DNA of 64,000 nt from Candidatus Thiodictyon syntrophicum. GTDB lineage: Bacteria > Pseudomonadota > Gammaproteobacteria > Chromatiales > Chromatiaceae. Positions 32,938 to 59,509 of this stretch are shown piece after piece (within the stretch, counting starts at the first letter, position 1; the number at the start of each line of letters is the position of its first letter). The translations under genes and the position numbers were made by a program. A model generated the notes under the pieces. The model saw only the letters and a list, made by a program, of their open reading frames with translations, ran no database searches and had not been told where the DNA came from. The stretch spans positions 1,145,501 to 1,209,500 of the forward strand of contig NZ_CP020370.1 in NCBI RefSeq assembly GCF_002813775.1, read 5' to 3'.

Positions 32938-33627
32938 TCACGCCACGCTGACGCCGAAATGACCGCAGAGGGCCCGCAACCCACCCGCGAAACCCTGTCC
33001 CACGGCCCTGAACTTCCATTCGCCGCCGCGCCTGTAGATCTCCCCGAGGATCATCGCCGTCTCGGTGCCCTGATCATCCGGAAGGTCAAAGCGCACAAGC
33101 TCCACCCCGGTCTTCATGTCCGTGAGACACACAGAGGCCCCGCGGACCTGGCCGAAATCCTGTCGACGCGCATCATCCTCATAAATGGTGACGCCGATCA
33201 CCAGGTGCTGGATCGCCGTCGGGACCAGGTCTAGACTGACCGAAAACGCCTCGCCCGGCCCTTGTTTGCCGTCAAATGAAACGGACCGGCACGCCGAGGC
33301 CACCTGATTGTAAAAGATCAAATCCTCGTCGCCCCGCACCTTAGCGTTGTCCGTCGTCATAAAGACGATGCCATCCAGTTCGATCGCGTCGCCCGCCGCC
33401 GTCCGCTCATTCCATCCCAGGCCGATCCGTAGGCGCTCGACACCGGGGTAGGTCCTGGACAGGGACAGATTCATTCCCTTGGTCAGTGCGACCACCAGTG
33501 GCGCCGCCTTCGCCGCAGGCGCCGGCCGCGGCCGTTCCACCACTACCGCCGGGTCGGGCTTCCCACAAAAGGGACAGAACCGGGTCGCCCAACCCAGCGA
33601 TTCGTTGCAGAATCTGCAGGCCAACAT
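32938..33627 (-). CDS. Zinc-ribbon TerD-domain protein
   Basis: This 229-residue protein joins an N-terminal zinc ribbon (MLACRFCNESLGWATRFCPF then CGKPD; two CxxC pairs) to a TerD domain from about residue 45 (LTKGMNLSLSRTYPGVERLR, LDGIVFMTTDNAKVRGDEDL). The usual Ca-binding GDNRSGxGxGDDE loop is replaced by FDGKQGPGEAFS, so metal binding may be weakened. FGQVRGASVCLTDMKTGVEL and IYRRGGEWKFRAVGQGFAGG complete the fold. It is the last gene of the tubulin-like operon, 3 bases after the tubulin-like gene. Its ribbon closely resembles that of the protein at 45057-45548, linking both halves of the Ter locus. Confidence 0.85.
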   Translation of the reverse strand: MLACRFCNESLGWATRFCPFCGKPDPAVVVERPRPAPAAKAAPLVVALTKGMNLSLSRTYPGVERLRIGLGWNERTAAGDAIELDGIVFMTTDNAKVRGDEDLIFYNQVASACRSVSFDGKQGPGEAFSVSLDLVPTAIQHLVIGVTIYEDDARRQDFGQVRGASVCLTDMKTGVELVRFDLPDDQGTETAMILGEIYRRGGEWKFRAVGQGFAGGLRALCGHFGVSVA

Positions 33628-33630
33628 CGA

Positions 33631-36600
33631 TCAGGTCCCCGGTGGTGCATCCAGCGGCGTCACCGGCCCCGGGACCGCCCCGGGAATCGGCGGTGGGGTG
33701 GCCGGAACCGGCGGCGGGGTGACCGTCGGCAGGGTGGCAAGCTCGGGAATCTGCCCGATCGGCAGCCATCCCGCGAGGCCTTCACGCCAGGCAAGCGTCG
33801 CAAACTCCAGTTGCCGGGCCGCGAGCAACTGCTGCAACTGGAGAAAGGGATAGGGACCCTGCTGCTGACCATTGAGCACGACGAAATACAGGTACTGCGG
33901 TACCACGGGGAGTACGCCAAGCGGCGGCGGCAACGAAGAAGCAAAGGCCGGCGGGGTCGGCGCGGTAGCTGGTCCAGGCGAGGCCGTTGCTCCAGTCACC
34001 ACGCTGGTCGCCGATTGTGCCGCAGGCCCCAACAGGCCGACCAATCCCCCGGCCTCGAAAAAGACCGGGAGCACGACGCGCTTCATCCGCGGTTGCTCAC
34101 TTTCCTGAACCTCCCAAGCATAGGCGTCCGCGTTGGAGTTCTCGACGGTAAGGCTCCACGCATCGATCTTGCCAAGCGCCTGCCGCTGGTACCCCGCGCT
34201 ATCCGCGTCGCTCACCCCCTTACGCCGTGCCTTCTCACGTAGATCCCGCCCCAACTCCTCCGCGATGGCGGCCGGAAAGCCCTTCACGGGCCTTTGACTG
34301 CCCATTTCATCCGCCACCAGGCAGGGCGTGTAGACTTCCTTTGCGTAATAGTCCGACAGGACGGCCAGACACGCTAACTGCACGCCATCGAGACCGCCGA
34401 GCCTGTCATTGACATCGCCGATGATCTGTTCACGATAGGTTTCCGGCAAACCATTCAAGCGGAATGCCCGTTCATTGCCGATACGCCGACTGTCACCCCG
34501 GCTGACGGAAAAGACATACTGCCCGGGCGGAACCGTCTCCGTCCTGGTGTCCCGGACCACGACCCCGAGCATGACCCCCAGCAAATACTGATAAAAGTCG
34601 TCGGCCAAGCGATTGAGCTCGGTCGTCGACGGGGCCAGGGGATGGGTGAACTGGGTGGAGTCGCGGTGGGTGTGGAGCGGGATCTTCTCCGACTCCTTGC
34701 GATAGCTGGTCCGCCACGCCTCCATACCGCGCAGGGTGGTCAAAGGTATCCCGGACAACTCACAATAGCAGACGGCGCGGCCGGGGACGCCGGTATCGAC
34801 AAAGGCCACCTGCTGCGGTGAAATCCCTACGCCGGCGGGCACCTGCGACACCAGTTCCTCCCGGAAGCGCTGCTCGTAGTCGGCCGCGTTGGCTACCCCG
34901 ATATAGCACTTAAACTGATCCGGTTTAGGCTCGAAGTCCTTTCCCCAGCTTGCATCGATCCAGGGCATCGCGCGGGTGATCAACTCCGCGAACCGCCGTT
35001 GCCGCTCGATCGGACGCATGGCCTCGAGCGCGAGCAGGAGCGGATCGCTCTCGTCGGGCAACTGATGTGACAGCGCGGCGATCTGCTGTTCCGCCTTGAC
35101 CCGCAACAGACCAATCAATCGTTCACGCTCTTTCGGCTCCGCGAGCATCGGAAACAGGGTCCGGGAGCCGCCGATATCGATGAAGACCTCATCGGCCCAT
35201 GAGCGCAATTCCCGCATCGGCGGCAAGGGCGCATTTTCTTCCGGCGTGTCGACGAGGATATAGGTCGCATGATCCTTGCGGGTATCCTCGAGCAAGAGCT
35301 CCACCTTGCCTTCGACCGAGTCGATCATGGCCAGCACGGAGGTTCGGCCAGCCTGGAACTCTCCGACCAGCCCGCTCCAGGAGGCATCACCGCGCTCATC
35401 GATACCCTGGCGCTCGCCCAACCACTGCGAAATCCTCTTCAACAGTGCCGAGGCGTGCGAGGCAGCCGTTGCGCGCAGATGAAATTTCAGGAAATTAGAG
35501 ATCTCCTGCTTGATTTGGTTCAGGATCAGGCGCGCCTGCTCCTCCTTGTTGCCGAAGCCGAACAGCCCGCTGCCCTTGGTCTGCTCCAGGTTGGTCAAGA
35601 GGCGATCGTATTCGCAACTGCGGACCACGTCGCGCAGCTCACCATAGCGCCGGGCATTGTCGGCCAAGGCCGCGATCAGGCCGGTGCCGGGATTCTCCAG
35701 GCGATCCTTGATCTGCTCGACCAACGACAGCACGTATTCCAGCCCGCCATAGTCTTTGTTGTCGAGATAGACATAGAGCTGGTCGCGAATCCTCTGCGTC
35801 GTTTCCTTGAACAACTGCGCCGCGTCATGGGTGACGCGATCCTCCGTGGTATCCGCGGTCGAGTCCTGGTCGCGAACCACGTCATGTTCCAGTTGCTTCA
35901 CCGCCTCCCTGATGCACGAGCCCCAGTCATCCTTCTTGTTGGCGGAGGCGATCCGCTCGATACTCGCGGCGACCTTCTGCAGCATCCCATCGATCAATGA
36001 TCCCTGCCGATCGGTCAGCAGGGTTTCGGTCATCTGATAATCGGTAAATTCCCCCCGGTTGAGCTTGGCCCGGGGGTCGCTGATCTCGGGAAAATCGGTG
36101 AATGCCCGCGGCACCAGTTGAATATACTGCGCCATGAAATCGTCGCGTTGCTTGTCGGTCGCCCGCCGCGCGCCCAGGTCCGCCATGGCGACGCCGAAAA
36201 ACGCCTTGAGCATCTCCGCCGTCCAGTGGTAGGCGCGCATGTCGCGCCGGACGCCGCGCTGGGTATCCAATACCGACTGCCCGAAGGCGGAATAACCCTG
36301 GAAATAAGACAGCCGCATGTCGCCATAACGGCCGCCGGGTACGGGCGGGGTAAAGGGAAGGATCTTGTGCTGGCGCTGATTGACCGCAACGGAGCGCTTC
36401 TTGTTGGCGAAATCGATCGAGGCGAAATCCTCGAACAGCGCGTCCGCCACCATGTCATAAATGTCCTTCTGGTTGCTGGTATGCAACTGCGCGAGATTGC
36501 CCGAGTCGATCAGATACACCTCGTCGTAGGGCTTGACGCTCAGCTCCGGGCGGTCATAGGCATCCCAGCGCGTGACGAAACGCGAACCGCCCCGCATACA

Positions 36601-37392
36601 GGTCTCCAGTTCCATGAACGAGGCATAGCCATTGGCCTCCGTACGCTCCTTGTTGGCGCTTTGATAGCCGGTCGGCAGGAACACCATCATTTCGACATCC
36701 GCCGCGCTCACGGTGTCTCTGGCAATCCATTTGGCCAGCCAGCCCATATCCAGAAAGGAGCCGGCGCCGGTGCCCCCGGCCACTGACCCGATGACGATGA
36801 TGCGGAACTTGCTCTGATCCAGATCGAGCCCCAGGGCCTTGAGTTGCGCGTCGTTGGACAGGCCGCTCTTCAGCCACACCAGCTTGGTGCGGATCTTGTC
36901 CTTTATCTTTGAATACTTATCGAAGAAATAGAGTCGCGCAATGGCGCGAATCTGACCGGCGCCCTTGGCGGGATCGATGCCCATCTCACGGATCTTCTTG
37001 GGCGTGAGCGGGGACCAATTCTCGATATAGGGATACTTCGCCAAGTCGTCATCGCTGCGACTGTAGCGCTCGATCTCGAACGCCTCCACCAGCCGGTCCT
37101 CGTCGGACAGCTTGACGGCGTCGGCGAGTGGATCGGTCCGCTGCGACTTGCCCGACTCGACCAAGGCGCCGTGGTCGAGATCGAAATGGATGAATTGGGC
37201 GACCGGAAATTCCGCCAGGGTCGAAATGCGCATCGGATGCTGTGGTGGTCCCCAGACCGCGGTGAGGATCCGGCGGCGCACCCGCAAGATGACCTCCATG
37301 CCCGTCCCGCCCACCCCGATATACAGCGTCGGGCGCAGTTTGACGATTTGCTCCGCCCGTCTGGCGCGCGCCACATTCTCTTGCTCTGCCAT
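33631..37392 (-). CDS. Giant FtsZ/tubulin-like GTPase (Tubulin_2 type) with C-terminal GYF domain
   Basis: The 1253-residue protein has an N-terminal glycine motif (TLYIGVGGTGMEVILRVRRR, about 22-41) and the tubulin-superfamily nucleotide signature IGSVAGGTGAGSFLDMGWLA (GGTGAGS at about 206-212). This places it in the tubulin-like family described by Makarova and Koonin (2010) as FtsZ-like proteins predicted to remodel membranes. Residues of about 480-800 are rich in coiled coil. Near 1115-1165 is a Pro/Ala-rich linker, then a GYF_2 domain (YLYFVVLNGQQQGPYPFLQL, LAWREGLAGWLPIGQIPEL), a fold that binds proline-rich peptides. A final proline-rich tail could itself be a GYF ligand. It lies between a TerD gene and a small membrane protein, suggesting a Ter-linked cytoskeletal module. 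GTPase activity is not proven. Confidence 0.85.
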   Translation of the reverse strand: MAEQENVARARRAEQIVKLRPTLYIGVGGTGMEVILRVRRRILTAVWGPPQHPMRISTLAEFPVAQFIHFDLDHGALVESGKSQRTDPLADAVKLSDEDRLVEAFEIERYSRSDDDLAKYPYIENWSPLTPKKIREMGIDPAKGAGQIRAIARLYFFDKYSKIKDKIRTKLVWLKSGLSNDAQLKALGLDLDQSKFRIIVIGSVAGGTGAGSFLDMGWLAKWIARDTVSAADVEMMVFLPTGYQSANKERTEANGYASFMELETCMRGGSRFVTRWDAYDRPELSVKPYDEVYLIDSGNLAQLHTSNQKDIYDMVADALFEDFASIDFANKKRSVAVNQRQHKILPFTPPVPGGRYGDMRLSYFQGYSAFGQSVLDTQRGVRRDMRAYHWTAEMLKAFFGVAMADLGARRATDKQRDDFMAQYIQLVPRAFTDFPEISDPRAKLNRGEFTDYQMTETLLTDRQGSLIDGMLQKVAASIERIASANKKDDWGSCIREAVKQLEHDVVRDQDSTADTTEDRVTHDAAQLFKETTQRIRDQLYVYLDNKDYGGLEYVLSLVEQIKDRLENPGTGLIAALADNARRYGELRDVVRSCEYDRLLTNLEQTKGSGLFGFGNKEEQARLILNQIKQEISNFLKFHLRATAASHASALLKRISQWLGERQGIDERGDASWSGLVGEFQAGRTSVLAMIDSVEGKVELLLEDTRKDHATYILVDTPEENAPLPPMRELRSWADEVFIDIGGSRTLFPMLAEPKERERLIGLLRVKAEQQIAALSHQLPDESDPLLLALEAMRPIERQRRFAELITRAMPWIDASWGKDFEPKPDQFKCYIGVANAADYEQRFREELVSQVPAGVGISPQQVAFVDTGVPGRAVCYCELSGIPLTTLRGMEAWRTSYRKESEKIPLHTHRDSTQFTHPLAPSTTELNRLADDFYQYLLGVMLGVVVRDTRTETVPPGQYVFSVSRGDSRRIGNERAFRLNGLPETYREQIIGDVNDRLGGLDGVQLACLAVLSDYYAKEVYTPCLVADEMGSQRPVKGFPAAIAEELGRDLREKARRKGVSDADSAGYQRQALGKIDAWSLTVENSNADAYAWEVQESEQPRMKRVVLPVFFEAGGLVGLLGPAAQSATSVVTGATASPGPATAPTPPAFASSLPPPLGVLPVVPQYLYFVVLNGQQQGPYPFLQLQQLLAARQLEFATLAWREGLAGWLPIGQIPELATLPTVTPPPVPATPPPIPGAVPGPVTPLDAPPGT

Positions 37393-37433
37393 GCTCGCCC
37401 TCCAATTCGTCGGGATGTTTCGCTCAACCTAAA

Positions 37434-37600: not shown

Positions 37601-38137
37601 TTACCGGCGTCCGGTCATCAGCATCAAGATCAAGGCCAACAAGGCGACGCCCACAAAGCCCGCGATGTAGATCGGCGCCAGAAAGCGCTCCTGATCGACG
37701 ACCGCCAGGACGCCGCCGGTCGCGAGGCTTGTCAGCAGTATAAACAGCCACCAACCCGAGGCATTGGCCGAGCGCGGTGCGACCCGCTTGCCTACCAGCA
37801 TATTGGCATAACCGGTCTTGGCAAAGAAAAAGGCAATGACCAGCACCAGCCAAACACCGCCGCCGATCGCCAGATCGCGCGGCCCGGTATCGGCCTTGAC
37901 CCCACCGGATGGATTGATCGCGGGGACCGTGGTCAGGGTCGCGGCGGTGGGCGCCGCCTGGCTGGCCCCCGGCAGGGCCGTTGTCGTTGCAGCCGATAGG
38001 GCCGGCGGCTGGGTGTTGGGATCGGGCAGTTTGAAGCCCTTCGAGTCCGGTCTGGCCGCCGTGTTGGCCGTTGCCGGTTTCGCGGCCTGCCCTTGATGGC
38101 CGGCGCCGCCTTCAGGTGTCGTCGATTTTTCCGCCAT
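37601..38137 (-). CDS. Small membrane protein of the tubulin-like operon
   Basis: From the ATG at 38137 (GGGGA upstream) the 178-residue protein has a hydrophilic, Ala/Pro/Thr-rich N-terminal half (about 1-88) and then three strongly hydrophobic helices: LAIGGGVWLVLVIAFFFAKT, GWWLFILLTSLATGGVLAVV and FLAPIYIAGFVGVALLALIL. The C-terminus is a short basic tail (MTGRR). No known domain is recognised. It lies between the tubulin-like GTPase and the vWA-like gene on the same strand, so it is a candidate membrane anchor for the GTPase. The longer frame from 38344 reads through repeat DNA and is rejected. Confidence 0.75.
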   Translation of the reverse strand: MAEKSTTPEGGAGHQGQAAKPATANTAARPDSKGFKLPDPNTQPPALSAATTTALPGASQAAPTAATLTTVPAINPSGGVKADTGPRDLAIGGGVWLVLVIAFFFAKTGYANMLVGKRVAPRSANASGWWLFILLTSLATGGVLAVVDQERFLAPIYIAGFVGVALLALILMLMTGRR

Positions 38138-38335
38138 GGTCGTTCCCCTTATGGATAAAGAGACGGCAGCGAGAATTCCGGAAAGCCGGGAAGCCGCGCG
38201 ATCCGTCTTGCACGTCAGGGTGCCTAGTATAAGGCCATCGGTCGAGACTCCGGGAAGCTCCCGCTCGTCAGGTAGATGGGTGGGCCTTGGGGCCTCGATC
38301 ATTGTCCCGGCCAAGGTGCCAACCGCAAGGTCTCC

Positions 38336-38389
38336 GGTCCGCACAGCGGACCCTAGGGTCCCGCTCCCATAGGGTCCGCTGTGCGGACC
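38336..38389. repeat. R2 full hairpin
   Basis: GGTCCGCACAGCGGACCCTA and its exact inverse, separated by 14 bases. This is the most complete copy of the R2 word found at 17543, 30306 and 41935. It lies in the 290-base gap between the vWA-like and small membrane protein genes and might act as a terminator or attenuator between them. Confidence 0.7.
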
Positions 38390-38427: not shown

Positions 38428-39933
38428 TTATTGGGTCACCTCAACACGGTGCCCTTCCTTGGGGTCGAGAATCTCGACACCGGTGAGGCCGCGCCGGACC
38501 CCGGCAACGCGGTCCCCCGCGGCGCAATACAATTCCTGTCGTTGGAACGGCTTGAGCCGGCAGGTCTGCACCTGGCCGTCGACCCTGATGTGATAGTCTC
38601 GCGGCCTGGTGAAGAAGCCCAGCGCGAACAGGATCAACCCCAGGCCCAGGAGCAAGGCGGCCCCGATGATGATCAGGGGGTAAAGCGGATAGTTGATGCG
38701 AATCAGCAAGGGAATGCTGACCCGCGATGCGAGGGTGTCTTGAGGCGGCACGAATACCTCGGAGATCGGATCGCCGGGAAAGAGTGCGTTCAGGTCTTGC
38801 CGAAACGTATCAGATAACGCGAGGCGTTGATTGTTGAGCGTGATCTCGACCGTACCCTCCATCTGGATGCGCTTTCCCAAGGAACTCATGGCTTTGGCTG
38901 ACCAGATAGAGGGTATCTGGGCCAGCGGAATGGGCAGCGAGACCCTGACCACCTCTTGAGCCCCGGGTTGCAGCCGGCTGACGGCGGGCGGGTCGACGGA
39001 CAACGGGCCCTGCCAGGACCCGACCGTAAATCGCGCCGCGATGTCAGCGGCTTCGATAATATACGGATAAAACAGGTTCTCCAGCGAGGCGACGATCTCG
39101 ACGCGGGGCTGTTCCCGGGAGGCAACCACGTCCAAGAGCACCGTTGCCTGATCGGCGGCCATCCCGACAGTGATTGCGGATTCGTTCCTGATTTCCCGCG
39201 GCAGCAGGCGGACCGAGTCCCGGTCCAACGGCTTGAGCCGCGCCGGTTGCTCGGTAAAGACCTTGGCCGTCCGGCCGCTCTGAATCAAGTGGCGCAGGGC
39301 CGCGTCGGCCTCCTGCCCATAGGCCAGCGCATAGACCATGAGCCCGCCGGCCTGATAGACCCGCCCCTTGACTGCCATCCCCAATGGGAACACGACGGTC
39401 CTGGCGATCGTCGGCTCAATATGCACCAATTCGTAAAACTCGCGATTGCGCGCGAGCGTTTCAGGGTCATTGTGCGGGCTGTTCCTGTTGTTGGTGAAGA
39501 TCCAGATAATTCCTGGTCGCCCCAGGAATTGCTCAACGATGGTCTTGGTCACTGCCTCCTGAAAATCGGTATCGGTCAAGGCACCGGATTTCGGCTTCTT
39601 TGCGACTGTGACGGCGGCGATGACATCCTCCAGGGGCGGTCCGGCAGCGCCGCTGGAAAAGATCAGCTCCGGTGACTGGTGGTCGCCGAACGATTGGTTG
39701 AATACCGACACAAAGACCTTCTCGTCCGGACTGGTCACGGCATGAAAGACGGCCAGCACCAGGGGCTTGAACTGGGACCTGGGATCGGTATAAAAAGGCT
39801 CCATCCATCCCGAATTCTGGATAAGAAATGCCTGCTGCATCGGCGCTGCGGCCGGGGCCTGCGAGCCGAGCATGGCCAACAGGAGCAGCAGGCCCAGGGG
39901 CAGGGTCTTGGCCTTTTGCTTTGGCGTCAGCAA
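38428..39933 (-). CDS. Membrane-anchored protein with degenerate vWA-like domain
   Basis: I place the start at a TTG (39931-39933) that overlaps the previous gene's stop by 7 bases, with GGAG eight bases upstream. It gives 501 residues and a clean Sec signal (LPLGLLLLLAMLGSQAPAAA). The exported part begins AFLIQNSGWMEPFYTDPRSQ, which aligns with strand 1 of a vWA domain but has NSG-W where DxSxS should be; IIWIFTNNRNSPHNDPETLA replaces the later MIDAS strand. An Ig-like middle region follows, then one membrane helix (LYPLIIIGAALLLGLGLILF) and a cytoplasmic tail. The topology suggests a periplasmic sensor arm anchored beside the tubulin-like GTPase. The assignment to vWA is structural inference from pattern, and metal binding is unlikely. 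Confidence 0.7.
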   Translation of the reverse strand: MLTPKQKAKTLPLGLLLLLAMLGSQAPAAAPMQQAFLIQNSGWMEPFYTDPRSQFKPLVLAVFHAVTSPDEKVFVSVFNQSFGDHQSPELIFSSGAAGPPLEDVIAAVTVAKKPKSGALTDTDFQEAVTKTIVEQFLGRPGIIWIFTNNRNSPHNDPETLARNREFYELVHIEPTIARTVVFPLGMAVKGRVYQAGGLMVYALAYGQEADAALRHLIQSGRTAKVFTEQPARLKPLDRDSVRLLPREIRNESAITVGMAADQATVLLDVVASREQPRVEIVASLENLFYPYIIEAADIAARFTVGSWQGPLSVDPPAVSRLQPGAQEVVRVSLPIPLAQIPSIWSAKAMSSLGKRIQMEGTVEITLNNQRLALSDTFRQDLNALFPGDPISEVFVPPQDTLASRVSIPLLIRINYPLYPLIIIGAALLLGLGLILFALGFFTRPRDYHIRVDGQVQTCRLKPFQRQELYCAAGDRVAGVRRGLTGVEILDPKEGHRVEVTQ

Positions 39934-49689: not shown

Positions 49690-50265
49690 TCAGAGGTAGC
49701 GGCCGATCAACGGCATCAGATCATTGAAGGTGCGGCCCGCGCCCTTCTCGCCGATCGCCTGCAGGTTCCAGGCGCCGTTTTCGCGGTATAGTTTGGCCAT
49801 CACCATGCCGGTGTGATCGGCCCCGTCGAGCGACAGGTCGAAGCGGGCCAGTTCCTTGTTTCCGGCGGCGTCCAACAGGCGGCAGCGGGCGTTGGGAATG
49901 CCCTCGAAGCTGTCGTTGAGGAATGAATTCACGGTGAAGATCAACACATCGACGGCGGCCGGGAGCTTGCCCAAGTCGACGCTGATCCGTTCGTTGTCGT
50001 CGCTACCGCCGCCCGCGCGGTCATCGCCGGTGTGACGGACGGCCCCACACTGACTCTGCAATTGCCGGAACCATACGTTGTCGGTCAGCACTCTGGCCGC
50101 GAACAGCAGGCAGGAGGCGTCGAGATCGACCTCGACCTCCGATGATCCGAAGAATCCCTTCTTCTTGCGCTTGCCCCATCCCAGACCCAGCACGACGCGC
50201 GCCAAGCCGGGGCCGCCGGTCTTCTCCAACGAGATCCGCTCACCCTTTGAGAGATTCAGTGCCAC
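49690..50265 (-). CDS. TerZ-like TerD-domain protein
   Basis: The 191 residues begin MALNLSKGERISLEKTGGPG, then carry a basic insert of the TerZ/TerX type, LGWGKRKKKGFFGSSEVEVD. The Ca-binding loop RHTGDDRAGGGSDDNERISV and SFEGIPNARCRLLDAAGNKE complete the fold. KKKGFFGS-type loops are found in the TerZ branch rather than TerD/E. It ends just before the TerA-like gene and follows the kinase gene on the same strand with a 57-base gap. Confidence 0.9.
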   Translation of the reverse strand: MALNLSKGERISLEKTGGPGLARVVLGLGWGKRKKKGFFGSSEVEVDLDASCLLFAARVLTDNVWFRQLQSQCGAVRHTGDDRAGGGSDDNERISVDLGKLPAAVDVLIFTVNSFLNDSFEGIPNARCRLLDAAGNKELARFDLSLDGADHTGMVMAKLYRENGAWNLQAIGEKGAGRTFNDLMPLIGRYL

Positions 50266-51576: not shown

Positions 51577-53039
51577 AGGGTGCGGTCGTCGTGGTTGCCG
51601 CGGCTCCAGAAATTGAGCCAGTCGAGTGTGCGCGCATCCGCGTCGGGTGCGGCGAGCAGCGGCGCCAGTTCCGCCCACAGGGCGGCCCAGGCCGCGGATT
51701 CCCGCAGGGTTGCATCCGACGGGAACCATGGGTCGCTCACCCCGTCGGTCATCAACAGCAGGGCGGTGAACTCCTTGACCAGCCGGACGTTCAGACGCCG
51801 CATGATCTGGTCCCCGTCAGCGAACACCGAGCGGTCCAGGAACCGGGTCTGACCGGCATAGTCCCCGCCTTCCGGCATCCCCAGCAGTTCGACCCCATGC
51901 CCGGTGCTGTAGAGTGCAATGGCGCCATCGCCGACCCAATAGGTTGCCACCAGGTCGCCCACCGGTGTGCGGGTGTGGGCGGCGAGCAACAGGGTGGTCG
52001 CATAGTCACGCGGTTCGCCCCCCTGGGCGCGCGCCTTGGCCTCGATGGCCTTGGTCGCCTCGAAGGCGGCGGCACCCAAGGTGTTGTAGGCGGCGATCCG
52101 GGCCTGCCCGGGGTCGGCGTTCTCTGTGGCCAGGTCCTGGAGCCGCGGCCCCGGCTGGTCATCGAGCAGCCGTTGGCGGGCGACCTCGACGGCCGTTGCG
52201 GCGGCGATGCGCGACCCGATGCGTGAATGCCTGGCGCTGCCTGCACCATCGGCGACCGCAATCAGGTTCCACCCATCGGCCGCGGTGACACACCAGGCAT
52301 AATCGTCGTCGCGCATGGTCCCGATATGGGCGTGCGAGCGTCCTCTGCGACTGGCGAGCAGGATCTGCCGATCATGGGCGCCGGGCAGCCGCACCGCGGC
52401 GGTATCCGGCTTCCATCCCGTTGCGTCCCGGTCCGACGCCAGGTCCTTCCAGAGGGCGCGCGGGTCGGCGTTCACGACCAGGAGCGCGACCGCCCGGCAG
52501 GTCGGCGCGGCGGGATCATCCGGGTCTTGACAGGTCACCGCCAGCCGATGCTCGCCGGGCTGATGGGCGATCCCGGTCAAGAGTCCCGCCGCATAGGTGA
52601 GCCCGAGGGCCTCCGGGACCTCGCACGCGACGACCTGCATGGGCCGCCCGTCGCTCGCCCGTACCTGCAGGCGCGCCTGGAAGGGCTCACCGGCGCGGGC
52701 GTTGGATTCGATCTCGGCGATGATCTGGGGTTGGACCGGCGCGCTCCTCGGCAGCAGGGTGTCGGGGATGTTCCCGGGGTGCTGATCGGGGTCGATCGGC
52801 GCCGACCTGCCGATCGGGTACGCCATGGCCGGCGCTGGAGCGACTGACGGCGCATCCTGGCCTACGGCCGCGTCGGTCGGGGAGGAGGATGGCGAGGCGA
52901 CCAGGTCGATCAGTCCCCCGGCCGCCGCCACCGCCTGATCGTAAACCGGGCCGCTCGGCCAGCGGTTATGATCCGCGACCTGCCCGCGGAGCCAGTCGAG
53001 CAGATTCAAGGACAGGGCGGTGCGGGTCTCCAGGTCCAT
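51570..53039 (-). CDS. PP2C-type Ser/Thr phosphatase of the Ter locus
   Basis: Translation from ATG 53039 gives about 490 homologous residues before the frame runs on, out of frame, across the kinase gene to 51171. Residues of about 105-190 resemble an Ig-like domain (ARAGEPFQARLQVRASDGRP, LGLTYAAGLLTGIAHQPGEH). The PP2C catalytic domain follows: WNLIAVADGAGSARHSRIGS, YATTLLLAAHTRTP, ATYWVGDGAIALYSTG, LLLMTDGVSDPWFPSD and a final NHDDRTLAV. The metal-binding aspartates are all present. In Ter loci a phosphatase, kinase and vWA protein form a phosphorylation switch. Its start lies 4 bases after the stop of the upstream TerY gene. The out-of-frame tail could destabilise the protein. Confidence 0.85.
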
Positions 53040-53042
53040 GGG

Positions 53043-54095
53043 CTAGCCCTGGCGGCGCTCGACGTCGAAGCCTTGGTCGGCACTGGGCGCGAACCGCAGA
53101 TCCTCGCGACACCAGGGACAGGTCGCCTCGCCCGGTCCGCGCAGGCACATCAGCTTGCCGCAGCCGCACAGTGCCACCGTGATCGGGTTGCCGCAATGGG
53201 GGCACGCGGCCCCGCCCATGAGATCGGCGGTATTGGCACTGCCCCCCGCACCGCCCGCTCCGCTCCAGCGGAAATAGTCCTCGGTCAGCGGATAACACCC
53301 GGCGATCCGGTAGCCGCTGAGTTCGATCGAAAAGGCGTCGGTCGCGATCGGCAGGGTCTCGCGGTCGTATTTGAGCAGATAGGGGCGGGCGGTGCCCTGG
53401 CAACGCCCCACGAGCACCACGCAATCCTGGTCGCTACCGGGCACCAAGGCACCCGCCGTGGTGAGGGGCTGCATCACGTTCGGGTCCGCCTTCGCCAGGG
53501 ACAGGCGCCCGCTGCCGGGCTCTCCGATCCTTTGGCTCTGCACCGACACCGATTCGGTGAGCCAGCGCACGAAGACCTCGAACCCCCCGGGGGCGGTATC
53601 GTCGAAGAGCAGGACGTGCTCGGTCAGGGAGCGCAGGGTCGCCTGATCGGCATAGCGTCCGATCGCGACGGCGACCAGGTCCGCGCGCGTCGCATAGTGG
53701 TCATGCCAGCGCGACCGTGCCGCGGCGACTTGGTCGGTCGGCTTGCCGTCGGTGAAGAGATAGACGATGGGGCGCCAGTCGCCCTTGCGGTCGCGGCCGG
53801 GCGTCGCCACCTGGCGATCGATCTCGTTCATGACGTGGTCGAGTGCCAGCCCCAGGCAGGTACCGCCGCCCATCGGCAGGGCCGGGGCGCGAAATGCGGC
53901 CAGGTCCTGGAGGTCGACCAGGGTCTCGGCGATCCCGGCAAACGCAATGACCGAGAGCCAGACGGTGTCCAGGGCCTGGGGGTTGGTGCGCAAGGTGGAG
54001 ACGATGGTGCCGATGCCCTCTTCCAGGCGGAACAGGTTGTCGCCGGCCATGGATTCGGACACATCGAGTACCAGGAAGACGGGGAGACGCCGCAT
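53043..54095 (-). CDS. TerY-type vWA protein with C-terminal zinc ribbon
   Basis: vWA proteins of the TerY class bind metal and act as the hub between TerD proteins and the kinase/phosphatase pair. The start at 54095 (MRRLPVFLVLDVSESMAGDN; AGGGA seven bases upstream) gives 350 residues; the longer frame from 54323 belongs to another frame of the next gene. The MIDAS residues are complete: DVSES near 11-15, GGGTCLGLAL and YLFTDGKPTD. The C-terminal TerY_C region has a zinc ribbon with CPHCGNP, CGCGKLMCLRGP and CPWC. It is 3 bases from the phosphatase gene and 10 bases from the other TerY gene. Confidence 0.9.
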   Translation of the reverse strand: MRRLPVFLVLDVSESMAGDNLFRLEEGIGTIVSTLRTNPQALDTVWLSVIAFAGIAETLVDLQDLAAFRAPALPMGGGTCLGLALDHVMNEIDRQVATPGRDRKGDWRPIVYLFTDGKPTDQVAAARSRWHDHYATRADLVAVAIGRYADQATLRSLTEHVLLFDDTAPGGFEVFVRWLTESVSVQSQRIGEPGSGRLSLAKADPNVMQPLTTAGALVPGSDQDCVVLVGRCQGTARPYLLKYDRETLPIATDAFSIELSGYRIAGCYPLTEDYFRWSGAGGAGGSANTADLMGGAACPHCGNPITVALCGCGKLMCLRGPGEATCPWCREDLRFAPSADQGFDVERRQG

Positions 54096-54105
54096 GATGT
54101 TGTCC

Positions 54106-54744
54106 CTAGATCGCGATGCGCAACTCGCTCGGCAGCGGCGGCAGGGTGTCGCCCGCGGTGCGTCCGCTGCGCCCGCCGGCCGCGATGCTGCCGGACACCC
54201 ATTGAAAGAACTGGGCGAACAGCGAGCCGTCCAGCGTGTCGAGCGATACCACCGTGTCGGTGAGTTCGCGCAGGACATCGACCCGCGCCTTGGGTCCGGC
54301 CGCGCAGGCCACGATGCGGGCAAAGTTGCGCTGCTTGACCGCCGCCGTGGCCTCCTTGTAGGCCTGGGTATCCGAGGGCGCGCCGTCGGTCATCACAAAA
54401 ACCATGGGGCGCCAGTCCCCGTGCTGGGTTTCACTGCCGCGGCGCAGGTCCCGGTCGACCCGCTGGACCAACAGATTCAGGGCGGCGCCGAGAAAGGTGG
54501 CGCCCGAACCCGGAACCTCGATCTCGGGGATGCGCACCGCATCGAGCGGGGTTAGAGGGAAGACCTCACGCGCCTGCAGATCGAAGGTGATAAGCGACAG
54601 ATAGACCGTGTCCAGCGCGAAGGGGTCCCGTCGCAGTGCCTGTTCCATGGCCTTGAGTCCGACATTGAGGGCGTGGATCGGCTCCCCGCGCATCGACCCC
54701 GAGGTATCGACCAGGATATAGACGGGTAGTCGGCGCTCGCTCAT
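54106..54744 (-). CDS. TerY-type vWA protein (compact)
   Basis: This 212-residue vWA protein reads MSERRLPVYILVDTSGSMRG at the start, with a perfect DxSGS MIDAS, then TVYLSLITFDLQAREVFPLT, PGSGATFLGAALNLLVQRVD (the MIDAS threonine) and RPMVFVMTDGAPSDTQAYKE (the aspartate). It has the usual TerY length and lacks a zinc ribbon. The ATG at 54744 is chosen because it begins the family core; an ATG at 54765 is also possible. It lies between terB (46 bases upstream) and the ribbon-bearing TerY gene, so the order terB-terY-terY matches known Ter phosphorylation modules. Confidence 0.9.
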   Translation of the reverse strand: MSERRLPVYILVDTSGSMRGEPIHALNVGLKAMEQALRRDPFALDTVYLSLITFDLQAREVFPLTPLDAVRIPEIEVPGSGATFLGAALNLLVQRVDRDLRRGSETQHGDWRPMVFVMTDGAPSDTQAYKEATAAVKQRNFARIVACAAGPKARVDVLRELTDTVVSLDTLDGSLFAQFFQWVSGSIAAGGRSGRTAGDTLPPLPSELRIAI

Positions 54745-54811
54745 CGGGTCAGACACCGGCGACATTGATCTGCGGGGGCGGCGGGGGCAGGTCCCCCAGG
54801 CCCCCGATGTC

Positions 54812-55279
54812 CTACTTGGTCGGGAGAAACTCGCTCGGCTCCAGCCCGAGTTCGTGGCAAATCCGCGTCACCGCACCACGTTCGTCCTCGTCGAAATTAC
54901 CGTCGGCCGCCGCGATCACGCAGCAGGCGCGTACCAGCAGGCGGGCCTCGGCGGGCTTCGACTTGATGCCGGAGACCACCCGCAGCGCCTCGGCCTCGCC
55001 GATCTGGGGATCGAACTCGTACTTGGCGCAGTGGGCCTCGAAGCCCTTGATTACCTCGCCGGAGTCGTAGAGCGACAGGACGTCGGAACTGTTCATGAAC
55101 GCCATCATCTTGCGCTTCTCGTCCGGGCTCACGACCCCATCGGCATTCGCGATGATCGCACAGCCGGCCGTGCAGGCGTTCATGAACGACTTGTTACGCA
55201 GGCGGGCCGCGTCATCCTTGAGGTTGGACCCCATTTCTTTCAGCTTATCCAACATACCTTGAAGCATGGGTGACACCAT
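54812..55279 (-). CDS. terB: TerB tellurite-resistance family protein
   Basis: TerB is a small all-helical, metal-binding cytoplasmic protein. The sequence has two pseudo-repeats, each with an acidic motif: CAIIANADGVVSPDEKRKMM (about 40-60) and CVIAAADGNFDEDERGAVTR (about 120-140), matching ADGxxxxxE. The N-terminus is amphipathic (MLDKLKEMGSNLKDDAARLR). Three in-frame ATGs (55279, 55267, 55258) are possible; the first is taken, but none has a good ribosome-binding site. It is the first gene of the minus-strand Ter operon and is divergent from the phosphoribosyltransferase gene. Confidence 0.88.
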   Translation of the reverse strand: MVSPMLQGMLDKLKEMGSNLKDDAARLRNKSFMNACTAGCAIIANADGVVSPDEKRKMMAFMNSSDVLSLYDSGEVIKGFEAHCAKYEFDPQIGEAEALRVVSGIKSKPAEARLLVRACCVIAAADGNFDEDERGAVTRICHELGLEPSEFLPTK

Positions 55280-55522
55280 AGTTAACAAATGATTAACCCG
55301 GATTAATCTAATCAGGGTTCGGCGCGACGGTCAAAGTAGTCCGTCCCCAGGGGCTCGTCAAGCCTGGGCATATGACAATTGTGTCACCTCCTCGCCGTTG
55401 CAACCGCGACATCTTCGTGTATCGTCGTGCCGGCGCCGAAGCCACTAGTGAGACCATCAGTCGCCCGATCCGATCCCAAGACGCCATCAACCATCTGACT
55501 GTCGGCCCGAGGGGCCCGCTCG
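55280..55522. promoter_or_regulatory. Divergent promoter region between terB and the biosynthetic operon
   Basis: This 243-base spacer is the only gap between the minus-strand Ter operon and the plus-strand biosynthetic operon, so both promoters should lie here. Near terB it is AT-rich, with an imperfect dyad GATTAACCCGGATTAATC at 55291-55308; near the middle is GCATATGACAATTGTGTCAC. No dispersed repeat invades it, unlike most gaps in the window. Specific -35/-10 boxes were not assigned. Confidence 0.45.
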
Positions 55523-56677
55523 ATGCAATACGCCTTCACGATCCCCGGCGGTACCCTGCGCATCGCGACCGAACGCGAGGAGTTGCCCCTGCGGCAGTTG
55601 CTCGGCTTCGCCGCCCGGGCCAACCCGCGCCGCCCCTTCCTCTTCGTATCCAAGGTGTTGGGGCGCCATATTCCGTGCCGGCCGGCAACGATGCGTGACA
55701 CCTATCGGCGCCTCGCCGCCCCGCTGCTGGATGTCCCAGGCCCGGTGTGGGTCATCGGTTTGGCGGAGACGGCGACCGGGCTTGGCGCCGGGATCGCCGA
55801 CAGCCTGGCCCGCGGGAGCGGGCGCCACGACATCGGCTTCCAGCACACCACGCGGCTGCCGCTCGCCGCGGCGCCCATGCTAACCTTTGAGGAGGCCCAC
55901 TCCCACGCCCCGACCCACCTGCTGCATCATCCCATGCCCGCGCTGGCGGACCACTTCGCCACCGCGCGCACCCTGGTGATCGTCGATGACGAGATCTCGA
56001 CCGGGCAGTCGGTCCGCCGACTTGCCGAACAGGTCCGACCTTGGATGCCCAGGCTGTCTCTGATCGTGCTGGTCAGCCTGGTCAACTGGCTGGATGCCCC
56101 GGCACGGGAGCGGATTGCAGGCGCCCTCGCCGCCCCGTCAGGGTCTCGCCGGGTCGTGTGGTGCAGTCTCCTGGACGGGCAATTCGTCTTCACGCCGACG
56201 CCGGGGACCAGGCCCGCCGCGCTGCCGGCCGACGTGGCGGCACGCCGGCCCGGGTGGGCGGCCCGCGCGGACCAGGGACGCCGCGGTTTGCTGATGCCGG
56301 CCGGCGGGTCGCGTCCCCCGACCCTGGCGCTCCCTCCGGCGGCCGCCTCGCGCGCCCTGGCCGTCATCGGGACCGGGGAGTGCGCCTTCGCGCCCTTTCT
56401 GGCTGCCGAGGGGCTGGAACTGGCCGGCCTGGACGTCACCTTTCAAACGACCTCCCGGTCACCGGTCTTGCCGGGCGGCGCGGTCGTTGATTCCGTCGCC
56501 TGCCCCGATCCCTATGGCGAAGGCGTCGGTTATTACCTCCACAATCCACCCGGGGCGCAGCGGCTCGCCATCGCACTCTACGAAGACCCGCTGGCCTGCG
56601 CGGACCCGCACCCGGGGCTGGACTGGCTGCGTTACCCGATCCCAGAGGTCCGCCATGGTCCGGCGGGGATCCCATGA
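55523..56677 (+). CDS. Ter-module phosphoribosyltransferase with TRSP domain
   Basis: The 384-residue protein combines an orotate-type phosphoribosyltransferase domain (PRTase_2) with a C-terminal TRSP domain. The PRPP-binding loop is TLVIVDDEISTG (about 150-161), and GLAETATGLGAGIADSL is the pyrophosphate loop region. The TRSP part begins near 270 (ALAVIGTGECAFAPFLAAEG), with FQTTSRSPVLPGGAVVDSVA and a YGEGVGYYLHNPP motif. The start has GAGGGG at good spacing. Family knowledge: in Ter loci this enzyme is predicted to attach a ribosyl phosphate to a base-like substrate. Its stop overlaps the HAD gene by 4 bases. Confidence 0.9.
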   Translation: MQYAFTIPGGTLRIATEREELPLRQLLGFAARANPRRPFLFVSKVLGRHIPCRPATMRDTYRRLAAPLLDVPGPVWVIGLAETATGLGAGIADSLARGSGRHDIGFQHTTRLPLAAAPMLTFEEAHSHAPTHLLHHPMPALADHFATARTLVIVDDEISTGQSVRRLAEQVRPWMPRLSLIVLVSLVNWLDAPARERIAGALAAPSGSRRVVWCSLLDGQFVFTPTPGTRPAALPADVAARRPGWAARADQGRRGLLMPAGGSRPPTLALPPAAASRALAVIGTGECAFAPFLAAEGLELAGLDVTFQTTSRSPVLPGGAVVDSVACPDPYGEGVGYYLHNPPGAQRLAIALYEDPLACADPHPGLDWLRYPIPEVRHGPAGIP

Positions 56678-57429
56678 CCCGGGCCATCACCGTCTTCACC
56701 GACCTGGACGACACCCTGTTTCAGACCGCGGCGAAGGCGCGCGCCCTGGCCGGGCGTCACGGCGGCGGCGCGGCGGCCCTGACGGCGGCTGCCCATGACC
56801 GGGCCGGTGCGCCGCTCTCCTTTCACACCCCGGCCCAGTTGGCCCTGCTGGACCTGCTGCTCGGTTGCGAGGTCATTCCGGTGACCGGGCGCAATCGCAG
56901 CGCCTTGGATCGCGTCACCAGCCCGGTCTTTCGCGACTGTCGCATCACCAGCCACGGCGCCGTCCTCTATGGTCCGGACGGTGAGGTCTTGCCGTCCTGG
57001 CGGGAACGGTTGGCGGCCGGCACCGCCGCCAGCGGGCCGGCGATGCAGGCCCTGGCCGCGACGGTGGCGGCCCTGATCGACGGCGCCGGGCTCGCGCTGC
57101 GGGTGCGCGTCATCGAGGACGCGGGGGTCCCCGTCTATGTCTCGATCAAAGGGGATGGACCGGCCCTGGATCGGGCGGAGACCCTGGTACGCGAGCGCGG
57201 CGGCGAGCGATGGCGGCTGCACCGCAACGGCCGCAACCTCGCCGCCTTGCCCCCCTTTGCCGACAAGCGGGCGGCGGTGGCGCACCTCATGGACATCAAG
57301 CGGACGCTCGATCCAACCCGGACCTTCCTGGGGATCGGCGACAGTGTCTCGGACCTGGGCTTCATGACCCTCTGCGACTTTGCCATGGTGCCGTGTCGCA
57401 CCCAAATCCATGACGCGTGCTGGCCATGA
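56674..57429 (+). CDS. HAD-family phosphatase of the Ter biosynthetic module
   Basis: This Cof-like HAD hydrolase would remove a phosphate from the pathway intermediate. The 251 residues have catalytic motif I FTDLDDTLF (D10, D12), motif II VIPVTGRNRSALDRV, a cap domain, the late lysine in FADKRAAVAHLMDI and motif IV GIGDSVSDLGFM. It overlaps the previous gene by 4 bases (ATGA) and the next by 4 (57426-57429), a sign of tight stoichiometric control. The final residues YRCxTQIH-like end just after PCRTQIHDACWP. The substrate is unknown. Confidence 0.9.
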   Translation: MTRAITVFTDLDDTLFQTAAKARALAGRHGGGAAALTAAAHDRAGAPLSFHTPAQLALLDLLLGCEVIPVTGRNRSALDRVTSPVFRDCRITSHGAVLYGPDGEVLPSWRERLAAGTAASGPAMQALAATVAALIDGAGLALRVRVIEDAGVPVYVSIKGDGPALDRAETLVRERGGERWRLHRNGRNLAALPPFADKRAAVAHLMDIKRTLDPTRTFLGIGDSVSDLGFMTLCDFAMVPCRTQIHDACWP

Positions 57430-58574
57430 CCCCGGACCGCGCCGAAGGCCTCGCGTGCGCCCCGTTCAGCGGCAGCTATGCGCCGGCGGACTGCGAGTTC
57501 CTGCTCAAGCCGATCCGGCTCGCGCCCACCCCGGTGGCCCTGAAGGAACGGATGATCCAAGGCGCCATCCGCCATTACTCGGAGATGTTGGCCCCCGAGT
57601 CACTGCCGCCGCCCGCCTATCTGGAACTGTTTCGCGCCCTCACCCAGACCCACGCCGAGCGCCTGGGCCGCGAAATCCTGTCGCTGGCCGCCTACATCGC
57701 CCGCACCCGCGTCGCCCCGCTCACGGTGGTCTCGCTCGCCCGGGCCGGGACCCCGATCGGCGCCCTGTTGACCCGGGCCCTGGGCGCGCGCCTGGGCATT
57801 GCGGCCCGCCATTACTCGATCTCGATCATCCGCGACCGCGGGATCGACACCAACGCCCTGCGTTATCTGCTGCGGGTCGCCGCCCGCCCGGCCGCCGGCC
57901 TGGTGTTCGTCGACGGCTGGACCGCCAAAGGGGTCATCACCCGGGAGCTCAAGGCCGCCGTGGCGCGGTGGAACCGCACCGAGCCCGAGCACCTGGACGA
58001 CCGGCTCTATGTCCTGAGTGACCTCAGCGGGACGGCCGACGTGGCGGCCGGCTACGACGACTATGCGATTCCATCCGGTATCCTGAACGCGACCGTCTCC
58101 GGACTGGTGTCGCGCTCGGTGCTGAACCACCAGCTCGGGGCGGGCGATTTCCATGGTTGTGTCTTCTACGACCAGTTCGCCGCGGCGGACCACTCGACCT
58201 GGTTCCTCGACCAGGTCGCCGCGACCTTCGATGCGGCTAAGATCCAGGACCTCACGCTCGAGGCGCGGGCGGCGCGGGGCCGCCAGACCCGGGAATGGCT
58301 GCGCGCCTGCATGGCGCGCACCGGCATCGCCGATCAGAACCTGATCAAGCCCGGGGTCGCCGAGGCGACCCGGGTGCTCTTGCGCCGGGTCCCGGAACGA
58401 CTGCTGCTGCGCGATCCCGGCGACGCCGAGGTGCGCCACCTGGTCGAGCTGGCAGAGGCGCGCGGGGTGCCCATCAGCCTGGAGCCGACGATGCCGTTGC
58501 GGGCCGCCGCCATCATCCATTCACACGGTGACGCCACTGGCCGCACCGCTTCCGCCAGGAGCAACGAACCATGA
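57426..58574 (+). CDS. StiP-type phosphoribosyltransferase with PELOTA RNA-binding domain
   Basis: The ATG at 57426 overlaps the HAD stop (ATGA), so the upstream start at 57417 is rejected. The 382 residues comprise a StiP/PRTase_1 core (FSGSYAPADCEFLLKPIRLA, MIQGAIRHYSEMLAPES, VVSLARAGTPIGALLTRALG, RHYSISIIRDRGIDTNALRY, GLVFVDGWTAKGVITRELK) and a C-terminal PELOTA-like domain (about 275-365; LIKPGVAEATRVLLRRVPER, VELAEARGVPISLEP). FVDGWTAKG is the PRPP loop. Older annotation calls this a cysteine protease, but the Aravind-group analysis of Ter systems identified a phosphoribosyltransferase. PELOTA domains bind RNA, which hints at a modified-nucleotide or RNA substrate. Confidence 0.9.
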   Translation: MTPDRAEGLACAPFSGSYAPADCEFLLKPIRLAPTPVALKERMIQGAIRHYSEMLAPESLPPPAYLELFRALTQTHAERLGREILSLAAYIARTRVAPLTVVSLARAGTPIGALLTRALGARLGIAARHYSISIIRDRGIDTNALRYLLRVAARPAAGLVFVDGWTAKGVITRELKAAVARWNRTEPEHLDDRLYVLSDLSGTADVAAGYDDYAIPSGILNATVSGLVSRSVLNHQLGAGDFHGCVFYDQFAAADHSTWFLDQVAATFDAAKIQDLTLEARAARGRQTREWLRACMARTGIADQNLIKPGVAEATRVLLRRVPERLLLRDPGDAEVRHLVELAEARGVPISLEPTMPLRAAAIIHSHGDATGRTASARSNEP

Positions 58575-59509
58575 ATCGCGCCTTAGACCCCAGGGCGGCG
58601 CCCGAGCGCCGCGACGCCCAACCGTCCTATCTCAGACTCGGGGCCTCGCTCTACATGCCGGCCACCCGGGCGGACCTGCCGGCACTGCTCAACGGACACA
58701 AACTGTTCGGCCTGCGCTCACTTGTGGTCTGTACCGAGGACGCCGTGCACGCCCGCGACCTGGGGCGCGCCCTGGCCAACCTGCGCGAGGCACTGCCCCG
58801 GTTGGAGTCACAGGGACCCTTGCGTTTTCTGCGCCCCCGTAACCCGGAGATCCTGGCCGAGATGGTCGCGATGCACGGGATCGAGCGGATGGATGGGGTG
58901 TGCCTCCCCAAGGTCGACGAGCACAACCTGGGTGACTATCTGGAGGCCCTAACCCCGGCCGGGCACCTCGCGATCATGCCGATCGTCGAAACGGAGGTCG
59001 CCTTCTGCCGTGACCGCCTGCGTCGACTGCGGGTGCGACTGGACGCCGTCCGCGAGCGCGTGGTCTGCGTACGCATCGGCGGCAACGACCTGCTCCACCT
59101 GCTCGGCATCCGGCGACCCAAGGACTTGACCGCTTACGACACGCCCCTGCGGCGGGTGATCGATGACCTGATCATCGAGTTTCGCGGGCATGGTTACGAC
59201 CTGTCGGCGCCGGTCTTCGAGCACCTGGATCGCCCCCAGGTGCTGGCCCGCGAGCTGGAATTGGACCTGGTCCACGGGTTGATCGCGAAAACGGCGATCC
59301 ACCCGACACAGGTCGGCCCGATCGAGGCCGCCTATGCGGTGCCGCCGGGAGAGACCGCGCTGGCGCGCGCCGTCCTCGCGCCGGAGGCGGTCGGCGTGTT
59401 TCGTCTGAACGGCCAGATGGCCGAGCCGACCACCCACAGCCGGTGGGCGGCCCGCACGCTCGCCCGGTTCGGTGCCTACGGGTTGCGGCCAAACCCGGGG
59501 GACGCTTGA
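58571..59509 (+). CDS. C-C bond lyase of the TIM-barrel fold (HpcH/HpaI-like), Ter module
   Basis: The 312-residue enzyme resembles citrate-lyase beta/HpcH aldolases: LRLGASLYMPATRADLPALL at the N-terminus, SLVVCTEDAVHARDLGRAL (metal-site Glu), LRFLRPRNPEIL, GVCLPKVDEHNLGDYLEALT (the KxD/E barrel strand), AIMPIVETEVAFCRDRL, VCVRIGGNDLLHLLGIRR and GLIAKTAIHPTQVGPIEAAY. It would make or break a carbon-carbon bond in a Ter-linked metabolite. It overlaps the StiP gene by 4 bases and is the last gene of the operon. The ATP-grasp ligase that usually completes this module was not found in the window. Confidence 0.9.
   Translation: MNRALDPRAAPERRDAQPSYLRLGASLYMPATRADLPALLNGHKLFGLRSLVVCTEDAVHARDLGRALANLREALPRLESQGPLRFLRPRNPEILAEMVAMHGIERMDGVCLPKVDEHNLGDYLEALTPAGHLAIMPIVETEVAFCRDRLRRLRVRLDAVRERVVCVRIGGNDLLHLLGIRRPKDLTAYDTPLRRVIDDLIIEFRGHGYDLSAPVFEHLDRPQVLARELELDLVHGLIAKTAIHPTQVGPIEAAYAVPPGETALARAVLAPEAVGVFRLNGQMAEPTTHSRWAARTLARFGAYGLRPNPGDA

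Follow-up and report, generated by a model that had tools for sequence, protein, structure and literature searches.

A 64,000 nucleotide (nt) stretch of the genome of Candidatus Thiodictyon syntrophicum, termed the window throughout, carries between positions 32938 and 59509 an operon for a tubulin-like GTPase, which we call the core, next to a cluster of ter genes (Table 1). The host genome comprises 7.74 Mb on three contigs. The two gene sets are also paired in a few other bacteria, and this suggests a physical link between two poorly understood systems. Open reading frames (ORFs) of the locus were scanned with Pfam, and both canonical TerD paralogues and the TerZ-like protein were identified outside that scan by a genome search with PF02342 (TerD). 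Together with the ORF list, these searches bore out the gene places and strands given in the original prediction for this locus, which had proposed a single system in which Ca2+/TerD signalling controls a membrane-remodelling tubulin-like polymer.

By homology and gene order, the genes of the tubulin half form a conserved operon for a predicted beta-propeller, a vWA-like protein, a three-helix protein and the tubulin-like protein with its GYF domain. The last has its Tubulin_2 domain (PF13809) at residues 23-393 and a GGTG-type GTP-binding loop (AGGTGAG), in which A205-G209 and G211 are invariant in four sequences. Its GYF domain matches the AgmX/GltJ GYF structure 7z3c at 6.6e-5 as a single sequence and at 4.9e-9 as a profile, the only solved-structure match of this protein at E<=0.01. 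The first gene product of the operon, originally listed as an unknown, is instead a predicted beta-propeller. Its AlphaFold2 model has a pLDDT of 85.9, a hydropathy scan finds no transmembrane (TM) segment, and a Foldseek search gave a top E of 2.5e-5, with TM-scores to the query of 0.17-0.37 among the 50 matches listed; these entries are mainly what we take to be propellers. Several homologues carry an N-terminal CPxC zinc-ribbon-like motif of their own, which aligns with about residues 64-80 of the window protein.

The AlphaFold2 model of the vWA-like protein (pLDDT 84.8) shows a signal-like N-terminus and an alpha/beta domain, followed by beta domains, a single TM helix and a C-terminal beta domain. 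No Pfam domain matched it, a comparison with a single TerY gave no match, and a sequence-profile search of the PDB returned nothing relevant. Foldseek matches of the model are mostly to other folds; integrin chains also appear, weakly, and the part of them that matches is not displayed. In the family alignment (29 sequences) the motifs QNSGWM and TNN(K/R)NS are nearly invariant, and hhalign against a TerY set pairs them with DTSGSM and the TDG region, in the register of the MIDAS motif, at low confidence (E 0.04, probability 1.3%). Of the predicted 'vWA-like membrane protein', then, the TM helix is retained in the model, and the vWA assignment comes from model topology and this low-confidence register, not from Pfam. 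If this is a vWA domain at all, its metal site is degenerate. The three-helix protein is present as predicted, with homology bearing out the ORF length only from about residue 66. Most FtsZl1 operons include a vWA protein, according to the main text of an earlier survey (Makarova and Koonin, 2010; PMC2875224).

The other half contains the gene content by which a Ter system is recognized, namely TerD-family genes together with TerB, TerC and TerY/kinase/PP2C (Pfam and PF02342 search), and a linked PRTase/StiP/lyase operon (Pfam). All five PF02342 matches in the host genome lie inside the window; among its five Tubulin_2 matches, one gene alone is near TerD.

The locus also holds an insertion sequence (IS) of 2058 bp, flanked by a 9 bp target duplication and present in nine identical copies (over the 1851 bp tested) on all three contigs. 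On opposite sides of it stand a zinc ribbon (ZnR) part and an FGE part, which occur together in the relatives G001, G004 and G006 in single ORFs of 422, 366, 375, 383 and 359 amino acids (aa), two of the five having been scanned with Pfam. As the IS splits this ZnR-FGE gene, the second zinc-ribbon protein (45057-45548) is a fragment. The original prediction of two zinc-ribbon proteins that share an N-terminus thus stands for the shared ribbon, and fails for the second as a full protein. Because the IS lies inside one gene and has nine genomic copies, it does not mark a boundary, and we rejected the idea that it is a mere joint between two systems. In some ZnR-FGE proteins a hydrophobic stretch between ribbon and FGE is visible by eye; none exceeds the hydropathy cut-off. 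Further ZnR-FGE genes are present in Thiodictyon, among them unlinked ribbon-FGE stretches (one not in a single ORF), and so is one ribbon bearing a long Pro-rich tail. Between two ZnR-FGE genes of G004 there is also a second, diverged TerB (L040, 5403-5843; 8e-9). The transposase ORF of the IS encodes, at its start, a Druantia DruA domain joined to a transposase of the ISAs1 type; this 444-aa ORF covers part of the DDE domain only, and transposase-like sequence goes on in another frame.

Adjoining the ter operon, at 61673-63097, a protein that matches the PADLOC Orf5/HEC-06 and SspE models (best 3e-58) may be a defence gene. A tandem-repeat scan yielded nothing useful, and promoter and terminator scans gave no more matches than expected by chance.

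Table 1. Features of the locus. Coordinates are window positions; (-) and (+) refer to the forward strand as read.
Feature	Position	Strand	Basis and remarks
ZnR-TerD	32938..33627	(-)	Pfam TerD 4.2e-58; N-terminal zinc ribbon, Pro-rich linker, TerD domain without acidic loop
FtsZl1/Tubulin_2 GTPase-like protein, C-terminal GYF domain and Pro-rich tail	33631..37392	(-)	Pfam Tubulin_2 1.3e-53, GYF_2 6e-16
Three-helix membrane protein, 247-aa ORF	37601..38344	(-)	Three hydrophobic segments; position conserved; homology covers residues 66-247
vWA-like protein with signal-peptide-like N-terminus	38428..39921	(-)	AlphaFold2, family alignment, hhalign; start set by homology
Predicted cytosolic beta-propeller protein, first gene of core operon	39927..41402	(-)	AlphaFold2, Foldseek; no TM segments found
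ZnR-FGE gene, C-terminal part (FGE-sulfatase-like), cut by IS	42219..43032	(-)	Pfam FGE-sulfatase 5e-56; single-ORF homologues in L026, L027, L040
IS element, DruA-domain/ISAs1-like transposase	~43033..45090	(+)	2058 bp; ends ambiguous by one base
ZnR-FGE gene, N-terminal part (zinc ribbon, Pro-rich)	45091..45548	(-)	ORF extends into IS to 45057
TerC-family DUF475 membrane protein	45673..46770	(-)	Pfam 1.8e-111
TerD paralogue 1, acidic loop kept	46984..47628	(-)	PF02342 genome search, alignment
TerD paralogue 2, acidic loop kept	47845..48420	(-)	PF02342 genome search; 4e-84 to solved TerD 2kxt
TerA-like, two TerD stretches	48501..49688	(-)	Pfam TerD 2e-32
TerZ-like TerD-family protein	49690..50265	(-)	PF02342 genome search, TerD tree
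Protein kinase	50323..51729	(-)	Pfam Pkinase 8.9e-9; ORF overlaps PP2C ORF; homology from about residue 51
PP2C phosphatase	51171..53039	(-)	Pfam PP2C_2 1.2e-39
TerY with TerY_C metal-binding domain	53043..54323	(-)	Pfam
TerY (vWA)	54106..54765	(-)	Pfam
TerB	54812..55288	(-)	Pfam 4.7e-22
PRTase_2/TRSP	55523..56677	(+)	Pfam
HAD-like	56674..57429	(+)	DxDxT motif seen; no Pfam match
StiP/PELOTA_1	57417..58574	(+)	Pfam
C-C bond lyase (C-C_Bond_Lyase), TIM barrel	58571..59509	(+)	Pfam

Core operon and ter genes in other genomes

The original prediction allowed that the adjacency might be accidental if the two gene sets never met elsewhere. Core and ter genes lie together, without the IS, on contigs of Thiodictyon G001 and G004 and of a Methylococcaceae metagenome-assembled genome (MAG; G389). 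Because the linkage recurs in this way on three other contigs, we rejected chance adjacency. Compared across these sequences, the linkage is real and is conserved in one clade.

A single contig of G001 carries, in order, lyase-StiP-HAD-PRTase / TerB-TerY-TerY-TerY2-PP2C-PK-TerZ-TerA-TerD-TerD, two ZnR-FGE genes, and the propeller, vWA-like, three-helix, tubulin and ZnR-TerD genes; no TerC was seen on this contig. G004 resembles it, with TerC and an extra TerB-like gene added and one TerY fewer. The G004 contig runs from the lyase through the first 117 residues of the tubulin, and the remaining tubulin and ZnR-TerD are on a second contig. In G001, a TerD fused to an AIM24 domain adjoins ZnR-TerD (L027, 15072-16577). 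Three other genomes of the genus (G002, G003 and G005) have no TerD, and Ter clusters are found without the core in G007, of the same genus (TerC-TerD-TerY), and in G011.

In G389 the core, ZnR-TerD and ter genes share one 48.9 kb contig, whose GC content is 0.54-0.55 vs. 0.66 in the window. The gene order is different, with ZnR-TerD followed by TerD-TerY-TerD-TerY-TerY2-PP2C-PK-TerD-TerZ-PRTase-TerD-TerA-TerB-HAD-StiP-lyase. The tubulin is 76% identical to that of the window. Each of the 16 ter genes compared has its best bit score to the core-less G007 or G011 rather than to the window, G001 or G035, by small margins for TerY1, one TerD and the kinase. In a tree of TerD domains, the TerA, the TerZ and three TerDs of G389 likewise group with G011 or G007 (support 93/89 to 100/99). 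As the ter genes of G389 appear nearer to core-less clusters than to the window's, the tubulin/ZnR-TerD unit adjoins two different ter clusters.

Both trees were midpoint-rooted. The five Ter-linked rows among 37 form one clade of the tubulin tree (100/100), and the five ZnR-TerD among 45 TerD domains form one clade of the TerD tree (99/81), which sits beside the adjacent G389 TerD and then a G007 TerD. Independent origins of the fusions had been considered, as the TerD part of the Methylococcaceae protein reaches equally good scores with core-less TerDs; the tree gives a single clade. We infer, for the direction of the move as well, that ZnR-TerD had one origin in a G389/G007-type cluster and that Thiodictyon later retained it next to another ter cluster.

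A contig pattern scan found the core at no fewer than 34 loci in 33 genomes (one of them contributing two contigs), with hosts that include Pseudomonas, Massilia, Duganella, Azoarcus, Rhodoferax, Rhodanobacter, Stenotrophomonas, Endozoicomonas and a desulfovibrio. All four core genes are present, in one gene order, at 31 of these 34; the exceptions are L057 and L062, which are cut by contig ends, and a distant Azospirillum locus (L088). In evenly drawn samples, where at most four first-look candidates were scored per genome and the vWA-like profile served as core marker, the core was rare (3 of 398 genomes across the phylum and 1 of 369 across the class, the host's own counted in each). A query with the tubulin-like protein in the class sample matched, besides the window itself, through the GYF segment alone (4 of 369).

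Among 38 relatives, most of them draft genomes, the marker was found in the host, G001, G004 and G006, the same four in which ZnR-TerD was found. A general association of Tubulin_2 genes with Ter found no support: of 26 Tubulin_2 matches in these relatives, two of which are halves of a single G004 gene, the window type alone shares a contig neighbourhood with TerD. TerD occurs somewhere in 7 of the 20 genomes or records searched behind the loci (G389 included).

Two plasmids carry tubulin genes in other settings. On a plasmid of Azospirillum sp. TSA2s (L052), a distant relative of the window's tubulin (29%) has caspase-family, OmpA and DUF4384 neighbours, and the 43 kb displayed hold no Ter genes. 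On a Meiothermus taiwanensis plasmid (L054, 2310-18386), Tubulin_2 and vWA genes lie between DUF1156, Swt1-HEPN and brxL, a BREX-like neighbourhood; 'tubulin' is not mentioned in the main text of a 2026 BREX survey (PMC12839542).

Zinc-ribbon proteins beside the tubulin-like gene

A zinc-ribbon motif in an open frame was found within the 1.5 kb around and after the 3′ end of the tubulin gene in 31 of 36 loci, vs. 4 of 672 random control stretches of the same loci, with a motif written after examples had been seen. These 36 loci are not independent, since several are near-copies (for example three Massilia-type rows). The five without a match are L060 and L062, whose contigs end 37 and 240 bp further on, L086, and two Azospirillum loci. 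The downstream ORF of L086 groups with the ribbon proteins by BLAST, and Pfam shows no ribbon in it.

What follows the ribbon varies by lineage, and TerD follows it in the Ter-linked clade only. At a set cut-off, a hydrophobic segment comes after the ribbon in 21 of 27 non-Ter ribbon genes vs. none of four ZnR-TerD matches. In a Pfam scan of eight downstream proteins of non-Ter loci, TonB_C in L079 and PEGA in L072 exceeded the cut-off, and TPR matches in L079, L061 and L076 all fell below it. Gene order, the position of the ribbon gene and these lineage differences are read directly from the sequences. The ribbon of ZnR-TerD itself matches UPF0547 below the cut-off and was recognized by its CxxC...CPFC motif.

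Support for a shared ribbon as the link between the halves, as originally predicted, comes from ten genomes searched with the window-type ribbon. It was found at E<1e-7 only in the five that bear the core, the other five giving nothing better than 0.038. Although 2640 plasmid records match ZnR-TerD, none reaches 80% coverage, and these matches are therefore confined to the TerD part.

The TerD domain of these fusions differs from canonical TerDs in an acidic loop, which we take to be part of the TerD Ca2+ site (2kxt/2kxv). The two canonical paralogues of the window keep this GDN..GDDE-type loop. Across the alignment, the motif is lost in all five ZnR-TerD and kept with small changes in all five of the remaining TerDs. 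In the four Thiodictyon ZnR-TerD the loop is six residues shorter; in the Methylococcaceae protein the length is kept and the motif changed. Given this loss, the predicted Ca2+ control is unlikely to pass through ZnR-TerD, which looks like an adaptor.

Proposed coupling of the two modules and its alternatives

We regard the chances as about even that the two modules are joined via a zinc-ribbon adaptor, with ZnR-TerD recruiting the Ter complex to the tubulin-like assembly. One module would be a five-gene FtsZl1 operon encoding a cytosolic beta-propeller, an exported vWA-like protein, the three-helix protein, the tubulin-GYF protein and a protein termed ZnR-X, whose zinc ribbon, presumably cytosolic, is joined by a Pro-rich linker to an end, X, that can be exchanged. 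ZnR-X would dock on the tubulin-like protein through a ribbon contact, through its Pro-rich linker in the GYF domain, or both, and X would select what the tubulin machine couples to. In most other bacteria X would be a TM helix and then a probably periplasmic part, once with TonB_C and once with PEGA. In Thiodictyon and the one Methylococcaceae MAG, where the ribbon gene beside the tubulin carries a TerD domain lacking the acidic loop motif, ZnR-TerD would bring the Ter complex (canonical TerDs, TerC and TerY/kinase/phosphatase) to the inner membrane, where the tubulin-like assembly would be. The canonical TerDs, rather than ZnR-TerD, would then sense Ca2+. A broader version, which we put forward more tentatively, is that the zinc ribbon may be the standard plug of one bacterial tubulin machine, and that swapping TonB_C, PEGA, TPR-like, FGE and TerD ends may rewire an envelope-spanning assembly into which Ter is plugged here.

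Several observations weigh against recruitment through an adaptor. In 29 of the 33 scan genomes no homologue of a Ter gene (E<=1e-4) lies in the flanks, which extend up to 10 kb and are often cut by contig ends; the other four are three Thiodictyon genomes and the Methylococcaceae MAG. Because the core mostly lacks Ter genes in these flanks, and the core-less G007 and G011 have Ter clusters of their own, the two halves are not one obligate system, contrary to the original prediction. Independent repeats are few, since the tubulin tree shows a single origin of the linkage to Ter. One Ter-linked contig, that of the Methylococcaceae, comes from a MAG, and in G006 the core, one ZnR-FGE gene and ZnR-TerD are on one contig and the ter genes on another, with compatible ends and with no TerC seen on either. 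The idea of a periplasmic module fits unevenly, as 6 of the 27 non-Ter ribbon genes have no hydrophobic segment at the cut-off used and most scanned ends have no Pfam domain above the cut-off, with TPR matches below it in some and, in four of the eight, no module above it. GYF domains bind Pro-rich stretches as a family, and the docking step would extend this property to the present locus.

Much of this would also be expected if only the neighbourhood were shared, with the FtsZl1 operon and ter genes travelling together in a stress or metal island and ZnR-TerD a chance fusion with a neighbouring TerD. Core and ter are apart in most genomes examined, their linkage is confined to one clade of the tubulin tree, and the TerD nearest to the ZnR-TerD clade is the adjacent Methylococcaceae one, as local duplication and fusion would produce. 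We nevertheless consider an uncoupled neighbourhood unlikely, as the unit remains beside ter genes of two different lineages, ZnR-TerD fills the position held by a ribbon protein in 31 of 36 loci, and proteins 49-87% identical to the window's have retained the fusion.

A single system under Ca2+ control, with TerD proteins (ZnR-TerD included) binding Ca2+ and thereby directly switching a membrane-remodelling tubulin-like polymer, would draw on the same locus, on the acidic loops kept in the canonical TerD1 and TerD2, and on the role in membrane remodelling proposed for FtsZl1 (Makarova and Koonin, 2010; PMC2875224, main text). The loss of the loop motif from all five ZnR-TerD makes it improbable. 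We give still less credence to an anti-phage or conflict system with Ter as sensor and the tubulin machine as effector. One abstract links the ter operon to phage inhibition (PMC8123226), and the defence-like gene beside the locus and the caspase-family neighbours of the distant Azospirillum tubulin would suit such a role. However, of the 19 proteins scanned from the core, Ter and FGE sets (the scan covered neither TerZ nor the ribbon fragment), PADLOC models matched only the kinase, weakly and in its kinase domain (E<=0.01; E<=0.001), and near the Pseudomonas core there are what seem, judged from two sequences, to be ordinary transport genes.

If the zinc ribbon is such a plug and the whole Ter system has been plugged in here, Ter proteins would gain a physical output, in that they would control a tubulin-like assembly at the membrane. 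No mechanism is known for FtsZl1 tubulins or for Ter proteins, and the fusion would be a direct bridge between them. The series of ZnR-X proteins would also offer natural swaps for probing the role of the tubulin machine.

Relation to known systems

Ter systems were reportedly described by Anantharaman, Iyer and Aravind in 2012 as stress-response systems. They resemble the present ter half in TerB, the TerC-family protein, TerD/TerA/TerZ, TerY, kinase, PP2C and the PRTase/HAD/StiP/lyase operon, and differ in that here these genes are joined to an FtsZl1 operon and a ZnR-TerD fusion. The Myxococcus gliding protein GltJ unites a zinc ribbon, GYF and TonB_C domains and a TM helix in a single chain, an arrangement echoed by the ZnR-TM-TonB_C protein of L079. 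Unlike in GltJ, however, the GYF domain here is on the tubulin-like protein and the ribbon on a separate one. No Glt motor genes were noticed, and no search was aimed at them. A review counts GltJ as one of the MglA effectors (PMC12288465), and AgmX has been called a potential integral membrane protein (PMC3169522).

A literature search, in which subscription papers mostly fell outside the scope and may hold a prior mention, found no paper that joins TerD with Tubulin_2 or tubulin-like proteins, or tubulin with both tellurite resistance and TerY. The main text of the FtsZl1 survey (PMC2875224) does not mention GYF, tellurium, TerD, TerY, TerB, zinc, ribbons or propellers. The FtsZl1 (Tubulin_2, PF13809) operons described there share with the present one the N-terminal Tubulin_2 domain, a long C-terminal region, and vWA or vWA-like and membrane-protein neighbours; the GYF domain, beta-propeller, ZnR-X adaptor, FGE cassettes and Ter linkage are additional here. 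The locus thus combines two known kinds of system in a new composition, joined by what looks like an exchangeable ribbon adaptor; that the two are coupled through it we regard as about as likely as not.

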